Part shown: piece after piece, positions 41,861 through 52,156 of the stretch | How positions within the stretch are numbered: the stretch's first letter is position 1 | Layout of the letters: each line of letters starts with the position of its first letter | Assembly: GCF_008704795.1 (NCBI RefSeq) | Contig: NZ_CP023690.1 | Coordinates: 992,001-1,056,000, forward strand | From: Streptomyces spectabilis | GTDB taxonomy: Bacteria; Actinomycetota; Actinomycetes; Streptomycetales; Streptomycetaceae | Direction of reading: 5' to 3' | DNA length: 64,000 bases | Notes under the pieces: model-generated | What the model saw: only the letters and a program-made list of their open reading frames with translations | What the model was told of the DNA's origin: nothing | Database searches by the model: none | Translations under genes and position numbers: made by a program

Positions 41861-43054
41861 ATGCAGCACGACGGACTTTCCTCCCTCCTCGACGAACTGG
41901 CGCGCGTCGCGACGCTGCCGCTGGAGCGCGGCGAGACCCTCCCGGCCCGGGCCTACACCAGCGAGCACTTCCACGACCTCGAACAGGAGCGCGTCTTCCG
42001 GGGCGACTGGCTGTGCGTCGGCCACGTCAGCCAGGTCACGGGGCCCGGTGACTATCTGCGTACGGACGTCCTCGGCGAACCCCTGGTGATCACGCGGGAC
42101 GAGAGCGGTGACCTGCACGCGCTCTCCCGGGTGTGCCGGCATCGCTTCATGGACGTGCTGCCGCCCGAGACCACGCCCGAACAGGGCACGCTGAAGCGCC
42201 TCACCTGCCCGTACCACACGTGGACGTACCGCCTGAACGGCGAGTACGTCGGGCAGCTGGCCGGGGCGCCCCTGATGAACAGGGTCGACTTCGACCGCGC
42301 CGCGTGCCGGCTGCCCCGACACCGCCTGGAGGTGTGGAACGGGCTGCTCATGGTCAGCGCCGCCCCCGACGCACCGGCGCTCGGACCGCAGCTCACCCGG
42401 CTCGACGCCGTGCTCGCGCCGTACCGCCTCGCGGACCTCGTCGTCGCGTACACGGCACGCTGGGAGAACGTCCCGGCGAACTGGAAGGTGGCCTTCGAGA
42501 ACGGCTCGGAGAACTACCACCACATGGGCACGCACGCCGCCACCCTGGAGCCGGTCGTACCCGGCAAGGACACCGTCGTCGAGGAGTGCGACGGGCGCGG
42601 CTTCAGCATGTTCACACCGTTCGCCGCCGATCCGTCCCTGGAGCCGGACGCGGACGGCGTCCCGCAGGCCGGCACGCTCATCCCCGGGCTCGGCGCGCGG
42701 CAGTTGTCCGGGATGACGGTCGCGGGCGTCTTCCCGAACCTCGCCCTCGCGCTCGTGCCGGACAGCGTCACGTATCTGCGCTGGATCCCCACGGGGCCGA
42801 CGAGCCATGACGCGCTCGTGACCGTCCTCGTGCCGCCCGCGGCCGTCGACCAGCCGGGTTACGCGGCCTATGTGGCGGCCTCGCGGCAGCAGCTGGAGCT
42901 GATCCAGGAGGAGGACCTGGTGGCCATCCGCGGCGTCCAGCGCGGCCTGGCCACCGAACCGGCCCCGTCCGGCGGACGGTTCTCGCATCTGGAGCGCCCG
43001 CTGTGGCAGTTCCAGCGGTACTTGGCCGGCCGGCTCGTGGGCGGAAGGCAGTAG
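41861..43054 (+). CDS. Rieske-type aromatic-ring-hydroxylating oxygenase, alpha subunit
   Basis: 397 aa. Rieske ligands are CRH (about residues 92-94) and CPYHTW (about 113-118), with 18 residues between them. The mononuclear iron site appears as ENGSENYHHMGTH (about 210-222), with an acidic residue in QEEDLVAIRGVQRGL near 350. It would hydroxylate or demethylate an aromatic or quaternary ammonium substrate with O2. No ferredoxin or reductase is adjacent, so electrons must come from elsewhere. The start at ATG 41861 is preceded by a weak purine-rich stretch. Confidence 0.88.
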   Translation: MQHDGLSSLLDELARVATLPLERGETLPARAYTSEHFHDLEQERVFRGDWLCVGHVSQVTGPGDYLRTDVLGEPLVITRDESGDLHALSRVCRHRFMDVLPPETTPEQGTLKRLTCPYHTWTYRLNGEYVGQLAGAPLMNRVDFDRAACRLPRHRLEVWNGLLMVSAAPDAPALGPQLTRLDAVLAPYRLADLVVAYTARWENVPANWKVAFENGSENYHHMGTHAATLEPVVPGKDTVVEECDGRGFSMFTPFAADPSLEPDADGVPQAGTLIPGLGARQLSGMTVAGVFPNLALALVPDSVTYLRWIPTGPTSHDALVTVLVPPAAVDQPGYAAYVAASRQQLELIQEEDLVAIRGVQRGLATEPAPSGGRFSHLERPLWQFQRYLAGRLVGGRQ

Positions 43055-46197: not shown

Positions 46198-46899
46198 ATG
46201 GCTCAGATACGACTGCTGATCGCCGATGACCGCGTCGTGACCCGGTCCGGTCTCGTGGCGATGAGCAGGGAAGCTCCCGGACTCGACGTGGTCGGCGTGG
46301 CGCAGGACGTGGCCGGTGTGCTGGCCGCCGTCGACTGCCTGGACCCCGATGTCGTGCTGCTCAATCTCCGCAGACTCTCGGGGGAAGGCCTTCGCCGCCT
46401 CGCCCATGTCATCGGGGCGCACGTCTCGATCATCGTCCTGTGGTGCCATGACTCCGCCGTCACCGTCCAGGACGCGTTACGGGCCAAGGCCGCCGGATTC
46501 ATGGCCCTGGAGATCCTGCAGGAGGAATTCGCCAGCGTGATAGCCCTGGTCGACCGCGGCTGCGCCGCCTATCTCTTCCCGCGCGAACGAATCCGCGACA
46601 TCAGCGACGGCTATCCGACGACGCCGGTGACATCGGGAGCCATGTCGACCCTCACCTCACGGGAGAGCGACGTACTGCGCCTTCTCGCAGGCGGCATGAC
46701 GAACAAACAGATAGGTTCGGCCCTGCACATCGCCGAGAACACGGTGAAGAAACACGTCCATCGCGCGATGAACAAGTTATCGGCCTCCAGCCGGGTGGAA
46801 GCGGCGCTCCTCGTGTCCCGCCTCGGCCCGCTGGATCTGACGGCGCACGGCCGCGCCCCGCGGGGTCAGCAGAGAAGCGATCTGAGCAGCACTTCATAG
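46198..46899 (+). CDS. LuxR/NarL-type regulator with pseudo-receiver domain, two TTA codons
   Basis: 233 aa from ATG 46198 with AAAGGA upstream. The N-terminal receiver (IRLLIADDRVVTRSGLVAM) keeps the acidic pocket, but the phospho-acceptor position reads VVLLNLRRLSG (Asn56 instead of Asp) and the usual KD after the AAGF segment is replaced by ALEI, so phosphorylation is unlikely. The C-terminal HTH is intact (LTSRESDVLRLLAGGMTNKQIGSALHIAENTVKKHVHRAMNKL). Codons 94 (46477-46479) and 194 (46777-46779) are TTA, implying bldA dependence. It is probably the pathway-specific activator of the cluster to its right. The 3' end overlaps the convergent TetR gene by 34 bp. Confidence 0.87.
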   Translation: MAQIRLLIADDRVVTRSGLVAMSREAPGLDVVGVAQDVAGVLAAVDCLDPDVVLLNLRRLSGEGLRRLAHVIGAHVSIIVLWCHDSAVTVQDALRAKAAGFMALEILQEEFASVIALVDRGCAAYLFPRERIRDISDGYPTTPVTSGAMSTLTSRESDVLRLLAGGMTNKQIGSALHIAENTVKKHVHRAMNKLSASSRVEAALLVSRLGPLDLTAHGRAPRGQQRSDLSSTS

Positions 46900-47504
46900 G
46901 TCCGCCCCGCGTCGCCCACCGTCGCGGCGCCCGTCATCGCGACCTCATGGCCGAGACAGGTCAGGGCGCCGAGCAGCACGAGCGCGAGCCGACGGCATCC
47001 GGCGGCGTCCCTGTCGGACGCGTCGAGGCCGGGCCCGCCCCGCGCGGAGAGGGCCCGCTCCACCAAGCGGATCGTCGACGACAGCCACCACTGCTCGTCG
47101 ATCCGGCGCCACCGCTCGTAGCCGAGGACCGCGGGCGCGTCCAGCAGGAGCAGCCGGGCGGCGGCGGGATCGGCGCAGAAACCGAGGAACTCCAATCCGG
47201 ACCGCAGCAGGACACGGACCGGCTCGTCCTCGACGTCACGGACGCCTTCGATGTCACGGGCCGCCCCGGCGGACCGGATCCGTACGGCGAGCTCCCGATG
47301 GATGTCGTGCACCACGTCCACCAGCAGCGCCTCCTTGCCCGGCCAGTGGTGGTACAGCGCACCGGTCGTGAGCCCGGCGCTCCCGGCGACCTCCGCGATG
47401 GTCGTCGCGGCGTACCCCCGCTCACCGAACAACTGGCGTGCCGTACGGACTAGTTGGGCCTTGGTGGTCTCGGTCCGCTCTGCGTTGGATCTGCGCGGCG
47501 ACAT
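46866..47504 (-). CDS. TetR family regulator divergent from the cluster
   Basis: 212 aa from ATG 47504 (MSPRRSNAERTE). The HTH is TTIAEVAGSAGLTTGALYHHW at about residues 32-52, with TetR-like FGERGYAATT before it. It is divergent from the thioesterase gene with only 24 bp between the start codons (47505-47528), so one operator there could control both. It probably represses the cluster and itself, with a ligand that is a pathway compound. Confidence 0.88.
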   Translation of the reverse strand: MSPRRSNAERTETTKAQLVRTARQLFGERGYAATTIAEVAGSAGLTTGALYHHWPGKEALLVDVVHDIHRELAVRIRSAGAARDIEGVRDVEDEPVRVLLRSGLEFLGFCADPAAARLLLLDAPAVLGYERWRRIDEQWWLSSTIRLVERALSARGGPGLDASDRDAAGCRRLALVLLGALTCLGHEVAMTGAATVGDAGRTYEVLLRSLLC

Positions 47505-47528
47505 ACCGAACGATGCTATGTTCCTTCG

Positions 47529-47942
47529 ATGATGGATGTCGACGCGGCCCAAGCTGTCCTCGATAACAGCCCCTTCGGCCCCTGGTGGGGATTCAAGGTG
47601 GAAGCCGTCGCCAAGGGGCACGCCAAGGTCTCGCTGCCCCAGCGTCCCGAGCTCTTCCGCCCCGGCGGCGTCCTGCAGGGCGGCTGCGCCATGACGCTCG
47701 CCGACGTGACCTGCTGGATCGCGATCATGTCGCTGTTCGGCGAGGACGACCCGTCCGTCACCCAGCAGATGACGACGAGCTTCCTCGGCCCGGCCCGCAC
47801 CGATCTCCTCTGCGAGTCCACCGTCGTCAGGCCCGGCCGTCTGATCGTCTACGGCACCGCGGAGACGACCGACACCGCGGGCAAGCTCGTCTCCCACCAC
47901 ACCCTCACCTACATCCGGCCGCCGCAGCGGGCCGGAGCCTGA
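47529..47942 (+). CDS. PaaI-type hotdog-fold thioesterase
   Basis: 137 aa from ATG 47529. FRPGGVLQGGCAMTLADVTCWIA is the hotdog catalytic helix region (HGG in many relatives; here LQGG) and TTSFLGPARTDLLCESTVVRPGRLIVYG is the second conserved block. It would hydrolyse an acyl- or aryl-CoA thioester. It is the first gene of the plus-strand cluster. The very short intergenic region with the TetR gene leaves room for a nearly leaderless transcript. Confidence 0.85.
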   Translation: MMDVDAAQAVLDNSPFGPWWGFKVEAVAKGHAKVSLPQRPELFRPGGVLQGGCAMTLADVTCWIAIMSLFGEDDPSVTQQMTTSFLGPARTDLLCESTVVRPGRLIVYGTAETTDTAGKLVSHHTLTYIRPPQRAGA

Positions 47943-48083
47943 GTTCCGGAAGGCCTCCGAGTACCACCAAAGAGCCATCGGAATACCCCCATCGGACCCC
48001 GGTGATGTGGCCCCATCGTGGCCTGTCGACCTCGCGAGTCGGCCGGATAGTCTCCATTTCTCGGCTACCCGGAGGAGATTCGT

Positions 48084-48821
48084 ATGGGAGACGTCTTTTC
48101 GGAGACTGTAAACTTGGAGAGTGTCGGTGAACTCCCCGAGGAATACCACGAGGTACTGACACATCAGATGCTCGCCAATGGCGAGGGCGAGCTGAGCGCG
48201 GGCGACACCTACGTCGATTCGTTCTATCCGCTCGCGCCCAATGCCGACGAACGCTATGTGTGTCTCAAGTTCGGCATGGAAGAGGTCGACCATTTCCGGC
48301 GCTTCGCCAAACTGCTCAATCCGCTCGGCATCGACACCTCGCACATGGTGAACCAGGCCGTGGCGGACCGGCGTTACTTCCCGGCCGAGAGCATGACCAC
48401 CCGGATCACCGTCTGGGAGGAGCGCGCCGCGTTCAGCTTCCTGTGCGAACTCGAAGGTCACTTCCAGATCAAGGAGATGACCACGAGCACCTACGGGCCG
48501 CTGCGCGTCGAGGCCGACGCGATCCTCAAGGAGGAGGCCCGGCACTTCGGCTACGGCAAGCGCCTGATGCAGGAGGCGTACGACGCGGGCGGCCAGGCCC
48601 GCGACCGGGCGCAGAAGGCGCTCGACAAGTTCTACCCGATGGCGCTCGACATGTTCGGGCGGCCCGACTCCCGCCGCGGCCGCCTCGCCGTCAAGTGGGG
48701 TCTGCGCCAGCACGACAACGGCGAGCTGCGCGAGCTCTACAAGACCGCGATCGCGCAGCACATCGAGAAGATCGGCTTCTCCGTGCCCAAGGTCGACCCC
48801 TCCCAGCTGCAGTTCGCCTGA
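48084..48821 (+). CDS. PaaA/BoxB-like ferritin-fold diiron oxygenase subunit
   Basis: 245 aa, GGAGGAG before ATG 48084. Two helices carry the diiron ligands: MEEVDHFRRFAKLL (ExxH near residues 56-59) and LKEEARHFGYGKRL (ExxxH/ExxH near 151-155), with further Glu in HQMLANGEGEL and LCELEGHF. The pattern matches the phenylacetic-acid catabolic family, which contains phenylacetyl-CoA and benzoyl-CoA epoxidase oxygenase subunits. The usual partner subunits (PaaBCDE) are absent, so it works alone or with other partners. It lies between the thioesterase and a second diiron oxidase. Confidence 0.78.
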   Translation: MGDVFSETVNLESVGELPEEYHEVLTHQMLANGEGELSAGDTYVDSFYPLAPNADERYVCLKFGMEEVDHFRRFAKLLNPLGIDTSHMVNQAVADRRYFPAESMTTRITVWEERAAFSFLCELEGHFQIKEMTTSTYGPLRVEADAILKEEARHFGYGKRLMQEAYDAGGQARDRAQKALDKFYPMALDMFGRPDSRRGRLAVKWGLRQHDNGELRELYKTAIAQHIEKIGFSVPKVDPSQLQFA

Positions 48822-48897
48822 GCGGCGTCGGCCCGCTCCGCCCCCCCGGCGCGATCCGCTTCCCCGCGGCCCCACCACCTCACCGGAGTAGGAATCG

Positions 48898-49692
48898 ATG
48901 ACGACGACCGACACGCTGATCGACCGGATCAAGACGCACCGCGTCTTCCACCACCCCCTCTACGACCACTGGGCCGCGCGGCCCCCGTCCGCCGAGGTCT
49001 CGGGCGCGCTCTTCCACCAGGTGCAGTCGTTCTGCGCCTCCACCCGCCCCGGCGGCGAGTTCCCGACCGCCCTGCGCGGCATCGGCTGGGACGAGCAGGC
49101 CGTCCTCATCGAGGAGATCGTCGACAGCGAGTCCGGACACGGCCCCGAACTCGCGACCATGGCGGGCCACATCGTCAATCGCACCGGCACCCCGGTCTTC
49201 GACGACGTGTACGACACCGAGCGGGTCGAGGCCTGGCTCAAGACGTCGTCGGACCGGCTGCTCGCCGCCCTGCCCGGGTACGACCGGGAGACCGGTCTGA
49301 CCGCTCAGGCGACGGCCGCCATCTCGGTGTTCAAGCGCCGGTTCGCCTCCGACGCCGACACCACCGTCCGCAATCTGGGCACGGCGCTCGCATTGGAGAT
49401 CATCTCCAACCAGTCCCTGATCCCCGGCGAGAAGCGCGCCCTCATCGACTCCGGTCACTACAAGACCGACCTCGAAGAGCCGGAAATGCATTACATGGCG
49501 GAGCACTGGGGCGACTGCGGTGCCGAGCAGCAGCACGAAGCGAATGTCATCCAGGCCGTCTCGACCGTCATGGACGCGTCCAACAGCGACCAGATCGCGC
49601 AGGGCGTGGAGGACTTCCTGGAATCACTGTGCGCGCTGTGGGACGTCCTGGACGCCGCACTTCTCTCGTCCGGACTGCAGCCGGCCGAATAG
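48898..49692 (+). CDS. Heme-oxygenase-like diiron oxidase (HDO family)
   Basis: 264 aa, GGAGTAGG before ATG 48898. Potential iron ligands lie in VLIEEIVDSESGHGPELATM (about residues 75-94), ALALEIISNQS and EEPEMHYMAEHWGDCGAEQQHEAN (about 195-218), the Glu/His distribution of HDO enzymes such as those making N-oxygenated or C-C-cleaved amino-acid products. It is helical throughout. Position beside a second, unrelated diiron protein and an amino acid dehydrogenase suggests oxidative tailoring of an amino acid. The substrate is unknown. Confidence 0.75.
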   Translation: MTTTDTLIDRIKTHRVFHHPLYDHWAARPPSAEVSGALFHQVQSFCASTRPGGEFPTALRGIGWDEQAVLIEEIVDSESGHGPELATMAGHIVNRTGTPVFDDVYDTERVEAWLKTSSDRLLAALPGYDRETGLTAQATAAISVFKRRFASDADTTVRNLGTALALEIISNQSLIPGEKRALIDSGHYKTDLEEPEMHYMAEHWGDCGAEQQHEANVIQAVSTVMDASNSDQIAQGVEDFLESLCALWDVLDAALLSSGLQPAE

Positions 49693-49775
49693 TTCCCTGA
49701 CGGCCGGGCCGGCGGTTCACGCCTGCGGCGGGGCCGCCGGTCCGGCCGTCACAGGACGGGATTCTGGGGTGGGTC

Positions 49776-50852
49776 ATGAGTGTGTTCGACGAAATAGACG
49801 GCCATGAGCAAGTGCTTTTCAGTACCGGTCCCGGCGGGCTCCGGTGCGTCATCGCCATTCATTCGACGCTGTTGGGCCCCGCGCTCGGCGGCGTCCGCTT
49901 CCTTCCCTACCGGGACGAAGACCAGGCGATCAGCGACGCGTTGCGCCTCTCGCGCGCCATGACGTACAAAGCGGCCTGCGCGGGGCTCGACATCGGGGGC
50001 GGGAAAGCGGTCATCTTCGGTGGCGCGGGCGTGGAGAAGTCCGAGCCGATGCTCCGCGCGTTCGGGCAGGCGGTCGAGAGCCTTTCCGGCCGGTTCATCG
50101 CCGCCTGCGACATGGGCATCACCACCGCCGACCTGCGGGTCATGCGGAAGGAGTCCCAGTGGATCCGCGGCCTCGACGCCGCGGAGGGCGGCTCCGGCGA
50201 GTCGGGCGCGATGACCGCGTACGGCGTGAGCCTCGGCATCCGGGCGTGTCTGCGGCACCTCGACGACAGCGAGAGCCTGGAGGGCCGCCACGTCGCCATC
50301 GACGGCGTCGGCAAGGTGGGGGCCCGGCTCGCGACGCTCCTGGCCGAGGACGGCGCCCGTCTCTGGGTGGCCGACATCGACCAGGAGAAGGCCGAGCGGG
50401 TGGCCCGCGCCTGCGGGGCGGAGGTCGTCAGCCGGGAGAAGCTCTATCTGCTCGACGTGGACGTCCTCAGCCCGAACGCGATCGGCAACGTCATCGACGC
50501 CGACCTCGTGGACCGGCTCCGCTGCCGGATCGTCGCGGGCGGGGCCAACAACCAGCTCGCCGCGCCGACGGTCGCGGACCGGCTCGCGGCCCGCGGCGTC
50601 CTGTACGCGCCGGACTTCGTCATCAACGCGCTCGGTCTGATCCAGGTGGTCGACGAGCTGCATCCCGCGGGCCACGACATGAACCGGGTCAGGCAGCGCG
50701 CCGAACTCATCCCCGAGCGGCTCGCGGAGATCTTCAACCGGGCCCACCACCTGCGGATCAGCACGGCCGCCGCCGCGATCAGCATGGCGCGGGACCGGCT
50801 CGCGGCGGTGCGGACGGTGCGGTCGTTCTGGCTGCCGCCGCGGTGCGCCTGA
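49776..50852 (+). CDS. Leu/Val/Phe-type amino acid dehydrogenase
   Basis: 358 aa. The catalytic Lys is in GLDIGGGKAVIFG near residue 75, the conserved Asp in ACDMGIT near 110, and the NAD-binding motif GVGKVGARLATLL near 173. VAGGANNQLA and YAPDFVINALGLIQVVDE complete the family pattern. The start matches the short N-terminus of valine/leucine/phenylalanine dehydrogenases. It interconverts a hydrophobic L-amino acid and its 2-oxo acid with NAD+, either supplying or consuming the substrate of the neighbouring oxidases. Confidence 0.9.
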   Translation: MSVFDEIDGHEQVLFSTGPGGLRCVIAIHSTLLGPALGGVRFLPYRDEDQAISDALRLSRAMTYKAACAGLDIGGGKAVIFGGAGVEKSEPMLRAFGQAVESLSGRFIAACDMGITTADLRVMRKESQWIRGLDAAEGGSGESGAMTAYGVSLGIRACLRHLDDSESLEGRHVAIDGVGKVGARLATLLAEDGARLWVADIDQEKAERVARACGAEVVSREKLYLLDVDVLSPNAIGNVIDADLVDRLRCRIVAGGANNQLAAPTVADRLAARGVLYAPDFVINALGLIQVVDELHPAGHDMNRVRQRAELIPERLAEIFNRAHHLRISTAAAAISMARDRLAAVRTVRSFWLPPRCA

Positions 50853-50934
50853 GCCGCCGCCCGCACGGCCGGAAGGGCACCGGCACCCCGTCACCGGCGA
50901 AGGGACGCCGAACCACGATGAGGAGCGAGCGCTG

Positions 50935-51540
50935 ATGGAGTTGGAAGCCGCGATACGCACGCGCCGCAGTCAGCACCGTCTGATCGAACCCGCCCCGAGC
51001 GACGAGGAGTTCGTCGATCTGCTCGGCTGGGCCGCGACCGCGCCCGATCACGGCCACCTCCGCCCCTGGCGGTGGATCCTCGTGCGCGGCGACAGCCGGG
51101 CGGCGCTCGGCGCGGCCTTCGCGTCCGGCGCCGCCGACCCGGAGGCGGTCCGGCGCGAGGCGCGCAAACCCCTGCGCGCCCCGCTCCTCGCCACCCTGGT
51201 GCTCGTCCCCCGGCGCAACCACCGCGTGCCGGACTGGGAGCAACTGGCCGCCAGCAGCGCCATGGTCAACTCGCTGATGCTCCTGCTCCACGACCGCGGC
51301 TTCGGCAGCATGTGGCGCACCGGCCCGTCGGTCGACTCGGCGGGCCCCCGCCTCCTGCTGGACCTCGCACCCCACGAACGCATCATCGGCTGGCTCTATG
51401 TGGGCACCCCGGACCCCACCCGCCGCGCCGTCCCCCGCGATCCGGTGCCGGTCGGCCACCGGGTCTCCCGGTTCACGCCCCCGTCGCCCGTCGCGCCGCG
51501 GTCCGCCGTGCCGGAGGGGCTCACCAGTCCCGTTCCGTAG
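50935..51540 (+). CDS. Nitroreductase-family flavoprotein
   Basis: 201 aa, GAGGAG before ATG 50935. [42 protein letters not shown] is the N-terminal FMN-binding signature (RRSxR..., P-x-x-x-x-x-W), and [17 protein letters not shown] and [10 protein letters not shown] the C-terminal blocks, as in the short YdjA-like type. It reduces nitro, ene or quinone groups with NAD(P)H. It lies 82 bp after the dehydrogenase in the same direction. Confidence 0.87.
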
Positions 51541-51589
51541 GCGGAAAATGACTCGCAGCGCCGACCGGGCGGATGACAGGGTGCGGCAC

Positions 51590-52156
51590 ATGTCATCCCA
51601 GTACCAGATCCGTGCCGACCACGACGCCCGCACGATCGTCGTCTACCAGGCGTACTCGCCCGCCATCGCGGACGCGGCGCTGCGGGCGGGCCGCTTCGTC
51701 GCGCCGTTCTCGTTCCACCGGATGACGTGGATCAAGCCCTCCTTCCTGTGGCTGATGCACCGCAGCAACTGGGCCCGCAAGCCGGGGCAGGAGCGCGTCC
51801 TGGCGGTGCGGATCAGCCGTGAGGGCTGGGAGGAGGCCCTGTCCCGGGCCGTCCTGACGACCTCGGATCCGGCGGCCGTGGGACAGGCGGCCGTGCACGT
51901 CCAGTGGGACCCGGAGCGCTCGGCGCGCGGAGCGGCGCTGAACCACTACAGCATCCAGGTCGGCGTCGGCCGCCAGCTGATCCGTACGTTCACCGACGAC
52001 TGGATCGTCTCCCTCACCGACCTCACCCCCCAGGTCCGCAAGGCCGCCGCACTCGTACAGACCGGGCATGCCGCCAAGGCCCAGCGACTGCTCCCCGCAG
52101 AGCGGGTCTACCCGCTGCCCCGGGCGTTGGAGGACCGCCTCTCACCGCGCGGATGA
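51590..52156 (+). CDS. DUF4291 family protein
   Basis: 188 aa from ATG 51590 (ATG 51548 possible, adding 14 residues). [63 protein letters not shown] is the family hallmark (YQ-x-Y-x-P-x-[16 protein letters not shown]). The role is unknown; members may be enzymes, some likened to ADP-ribosyl or nucleic-acid processing folds, but no function is established to my knowledge. Whether it belongs to the upstream cluster is uncertain. Confidence 0.82.

Follow-up and report, generated by a model that had tools for sequence, protein, structure and literature searches.

Two unrelated diiron-type proteins and a hotdog thioesterase in a gene island shared by Streptomyces and Chromobacterium

Introduction

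What might a compact block of bacterial genes make when two unrelated diiron-type proteins are encoded side by side in it? The question is raised by positions 46,198 to 51,540 of a 64,000-nucleotide stretch of the Streptomyces spectabilis genome (contig NZ_CP023690.1, positions 992,001 to 1,056,000 of the forward strand; hereafter the window), where genes for a hotdog thioesterase (TE), a PaaA-like ferritin-fold protein (FER), a heme-oxygenase-like diiron oxidase/oxygenase (HDO), a valine/leucine dehydrogenase paralog (LDH) and a nitroreductase-family protein (NTR) follow one another behind two regulators. An initial annotation, made from the sequence alone, read this run as a compact pathway in which an amino acid or its 2-oxo acid is oxidized twice. 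Here, comparison across genomes reveals a block conserved in Streptomyces and a narrower core, TE-FER-HDO, whose order is identical in two phyla, and we weigh what this core may do.

A three-gene core shared by two phyla

The five enzymes claimed for the plus strand all exist as open reading frames (ORFs) in the order TE, FER, HDO, LDH and NTR (Table 1), and this five-enzyme observation is confirmed. The intergenic gaps measure 141 (TE–FER), 76 (FER–HDO), 83 (HDO–LDH) and 82 (LDH–NTR) bases. The TetR gene is divergent from TE, and its 3′ end overlaps the LuxR-type gene; of the two regulators said to flank the enzymes, the LuxR-type one does lie upstream, but TetR sits between it and TE rather than on the far side. 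As had been noted, Pfam finds no PaaB, PaaC, PaaE, polyketide synthase or nonribosomal peptide synthetase gene among the seven genes of the island.

The HDO alignment, in the form of two short peptide patterns that may miss distant HDOs, was used to scan GTDB genomes and returned 33 loci, at which partner genes were located by tblastn with proteins of the window and neighbors. TE, FER and HDO occur together in nine of the 33, six in Streptomyces and three in Chromobacterium. With the window and L089, the six make eight Streptomyces loci, each of which carries LuxR, TetR, TE, FER, HDO and LDH, so that the co-occurrence put forward as a check on the annotation is borne out for four of its enzymes in 8/8 loci and for NTR in 7/8; in the exception, L005, a penicillin-binding-protein-like frame (recognized by eye) follows LDH instead. 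Fourteen flanking ORFs were tested against loci spanning at most ~10 kb on either side of HDO, where distant ORFs could not match: 10 have a match in L002, 8 in L089 and none in L003–L007. Neighboring genes were rejected as pathway members, being matched in L002 and L089 alone. The ratio of nonsynonymous to synonymous substitution rates (dN/dS) is 0.04–0.30 for LuxR, TE, FER, HDO, LDH and NTR when compared with L003, L004, L006 and L007, indicating purifying selection on these six genes. We infer that the island moves as a unit.

In the family of Chromobacterium piscinae, FER was found in 5 of 61 genomes, and all five carry TE, FER and HDO in order, TE of the window being 46–58% identical to its Chromobacterium counterparts. 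No LDH or NTR match lies near the core in these five genomes, one of which offers a contig of just 11 kb, and the locus L028 has no close neighbor beyond the core in common with the other four. A cytochrome P450 and other Chromobacterium neighbors were considered as pathway members and rejected, as they are found in some genomes only. The five-gene unit therefore stands in Streptomyces, but the transferable core is narrower; the pathway idea is partly supported, with LDH and NTR as additions to this core in Streptomyces and perhaps in other actinomycetes.

Few genomes hold a close FER, which marks the island as rare. Among 392 genomes of the genus Streptomyces it is present in two (the source genome and G351), while 16 have a relative of ~37% identity, 371 have only weaker matches, comparable to those of canonical PaaA, and 3 have none. 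In a phylum-wide sample of 396 genomes, FER passes E 1e-30 in two, the source genome and one of the ~37% type.

Table 1. Features of the island, by position in the window
Feature	Position	Strand	Basis or remark
LuxR-type atypical response regulator	46198..46899	+	Pfam GerE; Response_reg just under cutoff
TetR-type regulator	46866..47504	-	Pfam TetR_N, 61.1 bits, and TetR_C_41
TetR-TE intergenic stretch, 24 bases	47505..47528	.	Separates the start codons of TetR and TE
TE, hotdog thioesterase (PaaI-like)	47529..47942	+	Pfam 4HBT, 38.9 bits; TIGR00369, 39.2 bits
Conserved region upstream of FER	47961..48083	.	Alignment of eight loci
FER, stand-alone PaaA-like ferritin-fold diiron protein (predicted)	48084..48821	+	Pfam PF05138
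HDO, heme-oxygenase-like diiron oxidase/oxygenase (predicted)	48898..49692	+	AlphaFold fold and structural matches
HDO-LDH hairpin (predicted)	49700..49750	+	-49.7 kcal/mol, z -6.6, no T-run
LDH, paralog of actinobacterial valine/leucine dehydrogenase	49776..50852	+	Pfam ELFV dehydrogenase
NTR, nitroreductase-family protein (YdjA-like)	50935..51540	+	Pfam PF00881

Similarity of FER to PaaA and its thioester-linked relatives

FER scores 64.3 bits against the Pfam family PaaA_PaaC (cutoff 28.5), and its AlphaFold model, with a predicted local distance difference test score (pLDDT) of 95.5, has PaaA as its best Foldseek match (4ii4, E 1e-9). Residues E36, E67, H70, E122, E151 and H154 of FER align to E42, E72, H75, D126, E155 and H158 of PaaA (PaaA numbers derived from the alignment), positions that we take to be the metal ligands. 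Five of the six are invariant in 41/41 rows, and position 122 is Glu in 37 rows and Asp in 4. As judged from alignment and model, FER shares with PaaA both the ferritin fold and the six diiron ligand positions. In contrast, at the positions of PaaA Glu49 and Lys68, which are altered in PDB entry 4ii4, FER has Val44 and Phe63; its score against TIGR02156 is 51.1 bits, far under the cutoff of 280; and PaaB, PaaC and PaaE genes are missing from the island. As FER is without equivalents of Glu49 and Lys68, the epoxidation of aryl-coenzyme A (CoA) thioesters by PaaA-type proteins, which the initial annotation had invoked, is not transferable to it. A probable canonical PaaA is encoded elsewhere in the source genome (5038183–5038848).

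In Streptomyces, members of a sister family of FER adjoin genes for a radical S-adenosylmethionine (SAM) enzyme, an acyl carrier protein (ACP) and a ketosynthase (KS); on an Alteromonas plasmid a neighboring gene encodes MaoC, and on one of Burkholderia stagnalis a PaaI-family thioesterase. These thioesterase, MaoC and ACP/KS partners support thioester substrates. The FER–radical SAM loci resemble the island in that a FER relative (35–39% identity) has as neighbors a second radical enzyme and a gene that is hotdog-type or carrier-linked, and differ in that radical SAM takes the place of HDO. When two of their hotdog partners were compared with TE, one was 30% identical over 92 residues and the other gave no BLAST match. 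Sister modules of a FER relative with radical SAM were observed at L073–L088, L101:8932-11287 and L102:9016-11413; a product name for such loci, sought as a source of a known product, was not found.

Fold and phylogeny of HDO

HDO scores 17.8 bits against Pfam Haem_oxygenas_2, under the cutoff of 28.9, and owes its assignment to an AlphaFold model (pLDDT 93.9), which has the predicted heme-oxygenase-like helical fold of the HDO superfamily and in structural comparison matches HDO proteins best. Residues E78, H81, E167, E210 and H213 are invariant in 32/32 rows and are candidate metal ligands. Structure prediction, suggested as a check on the two diiron sites, thus yields diiron-type folds for both FER and HDO, with conserved candidate ligands in each. 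With HrmI, CADD, BesC, PolF and MboA, HDO shares its predicted fold and a conserved Glu/His set of candidate ligands, and relatives of HDO lie among amino-acid genes. HDO differs from the described HDO proteins in its 10–18% identity to the compared chains, in falling below the Pfam cutoff for the family and, as far as the available portions of the reports go, in having gene partners unlike those of the described HDO clusters.

In a maximum-likelihood tree of 47 HDOs, 20 of the 21 FER-linked rows fall into one clade (support 96/88), which is separate from the methyltransferase-linked rows considered below and has the unassigned proteins P0022 and P0023 as its sister. Eleven of the 21 are database proteins paired with FER proteins by equal-sized longest contigs, the pairs being drawn from 46 FER matches and 120 listed of 318 HDO matches; for P0010 and P0015 the organism name also agrees with the pairing. 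P0064 is the one FER-assigned row outside the clade; perhaps its equal contig size arose by chance, or perhaps the genes are sometimes inherited separately.

Relationships of LDH and NTR

LDH contains the ELFV domains and keeps the GGGK motif and the MTYK lysine, the lysines presumably being catalytic. Its grouping with several proteins named valine dehydrogenase, to which it is 52–57% identical, upholds the earlier reading of it as a dehydrogenase of valine/leucine type, as far as comparison with named relatives can indicate. Against the tryptophan dehydrogenase ScyB (NF035922) it scores 323.7 bits, under the curated cutoff of 600. It lies on a Streptomyces branch separate from the other valine/leucine dehydrogenases of actinobacteria, and in a pocket-near motif three rows of this Streptomyces type read ALGL(I/V)Q where other valine/leucine dehydrogenases read AGG(V/L)I. 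The source genome holds a second copy, 49% identical. Relatives of LDH at 60–65% identity are found on contigs equal in size (14769, 4956 and 7915503 bases) to those of FER and HDO relatives, with identities of 60–74% over the three protein sets; FER, HDO and LDH thus seem to be linked in divergent actinomycete-like DNA as well.

The best PDB match of NTR is 8dil, followed by YdjA (3bm2), and NTR relatives adjoin HDO in L017 and L027 too. At L017:9046-10768, the genome of L002 carries a second HDO, which adjoins a nitroreductase 43% identical to NTR.

Branched-chain context of related HDO loci

At 15 of the 33 HDO loci (L009–L015, L018, L020, L022, L025, L026, L029, L033 and L034), HDO lies directly downstream of a relative of alpha-keto-acid C-methyltransferases. 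These loci, from Pseudomonadota and one Planctomycetota bin, hold the next HDO clade after the FER-linked one. In the PDB, the methyltransferase copies of L025 and L010 match the 8ftr group, MppJ and 2-ketoarginine methyltransferase, besides some weaker entries; the match to the NCBIfam 2-ketoarginine methyltransferase (E 5e-14) is far under its cutoff. The 8ftr group is probably SgvM; the main text of the SgvM paper contains none of those entry codes. The available part of that literature describes SgvM, of the alpha-keto-acid C-methyltransferase class, as methylating alpha-ketoleucine at C3. A reading of the enzyme as the azetidine-2-carboxylate synthase AzeJ was discarded, the AzeJ/VioH entries 8RYD–8RYG not being among the matches.

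The Variovorax HDO loci include LDH in seven of nine cases and a paralog of isoleucyl-tRNA synthetase (IleRS) in six of nine, with an AlaX-like editing domain, an EamA transporter and further genes often present as well. Dehydrogenase, synthetase paralog, editing domain and transporter are what would be expected of an isoleucine-mimic pathway with self-protection, and we infer that the Variovorax methyltransferase–HDO loci make a toxic, isoleucine-like branched amino acid. PolF, whose fold is among the nearest to that of HDO, accepts L-Ile and L-Val as substrates according to the accessible part of its report. By analogy with these PolF substrates, with the kinship of LDH and with the methyltransferase and IleRS contexts, a branched aliphatic amino acid is the likeliest substrate class for the island.

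Of the other HDO loci (9/33), six (L016, L017, L021, L027, L031 and L032) have a PhyH, desaturase-like, NTR-like or adenylation-domain gene close by; no telling partner was identified at the remaining three, L008, L024 and L030. In two Burkholderiaceae (L021:10001-14099 and L031:10001-14051), HDO is followed by a fatty-acid-desaturase-like gene, a PhyH-family oxygenase and a gene with a match to an EamA transporter family.

Regulatory sequences

Between TetR and TE, the 14 bases AACGATGCTATGTT (47509–47522) are unchanged in all eight Streptomyces loci, and the base three before them is T in L089 as against G elsewhere. A sigma-70-like site on the minus strand (47542–47513), a promoter-like match for TetR, is the one found in 47400–51700, compared with 0.1 in shuffled sequences. 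The stretch is likely to hold overlapping divergent promoters and a TetR operator. Across the eight loci, the TE–FER gap differs in length (141–351 bases) while its final ~120 bases are conserved, and TE and FER-HDO-LDH-NTR are therefore probably separate transcription units. The conserved end, which in the window has two TACC(A/C)CCA repeats 22 bases apart and a ribosome-binding site, is a probable promoter of the four downstream genes; a plus-strand consensus promoter match was not found upstream of FER in 47400–51700. On folding, the variable part of the gap in L003 forms a strong hairpin (z -4.5), and L004 (z 0.07) and L005 (z -1.39) gave no strong hairpin at the coordinates used, which may miss one.

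The central stem of the HDO–LDH hairpin is kept in 8/8 loci with almost no covariation, so that conservation does not prove the structure; LDH and NTR are perhaps expressed at a lower level than FER and HDO. Rfam gave no match at gathering score anywhere in the window. The LuxR-type regulator has Asn in its DVVLLNL motif in 8/8 Streptomyces loci, at what we take to be the usual place of the phosphoacceptor Asp, and as such may be ligand-driven.

Discussion

We tentatively favor reading the locus as a regulated specialized-metabolism island, with FER, TE and HDO as its core, that converts a branched-chain amino acid or derived acid to a small oxidized metabolite. In AetD, UndA, HrmI, PolF and MboA the substrate carboxylate binds Fe1, according to the portions of the reports at hand, and this binding of free carboxylates by HDO proteins, taken with the thioester-handling partners of FER, suggests TE as a hinge between the two iron enzymes. 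The substrate of HDO would be a free branched-chain amino acid of the Val, Leu or Ile type, or the acid derived from it, bound to iron through its carboxylate and oxidized there. FER would oxidize a CoA or carrier thioester, and TE would free the acid from the thioester and so link both oxidations, in the order FER, TE, HDO or the reverse. LDH, a valine dehydrogenase paralog, would convert the amino acid to the corresponding 2-oxo acid and back, NTR may reduce an intermediate or donate electrons to the iron enzymes, and the signal for TetR and the Asn-containing LuxR-type regulator would probably be the product or an intermediate. One amino acid might possibly be oxidized twice. Of the compact pathway first proposed, the conserved set and the two diiron-type proteins stand, while the core is narrower and PaaA chemistry is not carried over.

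Two results weigh against a branched-chain substrate: searches of the TE-FER-HDO genomes for a close methyltransferase relative returned weak partial matches only, and eight of these genomes (excluding L002, L005 and L006) contain one full-length IleRS each. Self-resistance by a second IleRS was considered and rejected, as one Variovorax genome has two full-length copies and those eight have a single one.

Several other explanations would divide the labor of the enzymes differently. HDO might be an N-oxygenase that turns an amino acid into an oxime, nitroso or nitro compound, like HrmI with lysine, with NTR reducing the N-oxygenated product, LDH handling the resulting 2-oxo acid and FER acting elsewhere, a route that we consider rather unlikely. 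FER and HDO might instead serve independent steps, the core making one acid-derived product to which the Streptomyces LDH supplies only precursor or ammonia, with NTR as a redox helper. The separation of HDO from LDH by a strong hairpin and the lack of LDH and NTR beside the Chromobacterium core speak for this, whereas the seeming company of LDH with FER and HDO on equal-sized contigs of divergent actinomycete-like DNA speaks against it, and on balance we think it unlikely.

An operon under TetR control for the catabolism or detoxification of an aromatic or alkyl acid, with FER as a PaaA-like oxygenase, would suit the PaaA fold of FER, the PaaI-like TE and a ring-hydroxylating Rieske oxygenase gene at 41861–43054, which lies upstream of the LuxR-type gene by ~3 kb. 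It becomes quite improbable because just two of the seven loci tested, L002 and L089, match the Rieske gene, the island has no ligase, ring-cleavage or beta-oxidation gene, FER lacks the Glu49 and Lys68 equivalents, and the genome keeps its probable canonical PaaA at another site. That five unrelated genes are adjacent by chance in one Streptomyces lineage is scarcely credible: the block is kept where the tested flanks are not, its core has the same order in two phyla, its genes are under purifying selection, and the FER-linked HDOs form a single clade (20/21).

Keyword searches of open-access literature, with subscription papers mostly outside their reach, turned up no described cluster with this set, and the available portions of PMC13185094, PMC11794875, PMC12614342 and PMC10502145 do not describe this set. 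TE-FER-HDO may, as a possible though doubtful proposal, be a new three-enzyme biosynthetic module. Its two unrelated diiron enzymes would act successively on one small aliphatic substrate, one on the thioester and the other on the free acid, with TE as the switch, to give an undescribed class of oxidized branched-chain amino-acid metabolites in Streptomyces and Chromobacterium. A pathway of three to five genes without large assembly-line enzymes could readily be reconstituted in a laboratory host. If the proposal is true, the module, with oxygen-activating iron enzymes of two different folds in a minimal conserved unit, would offer a tractable system for the division of labor between diiron enzymes on thioester and free-acid substrates, and possibly a new class of small molecules common to two phyla.

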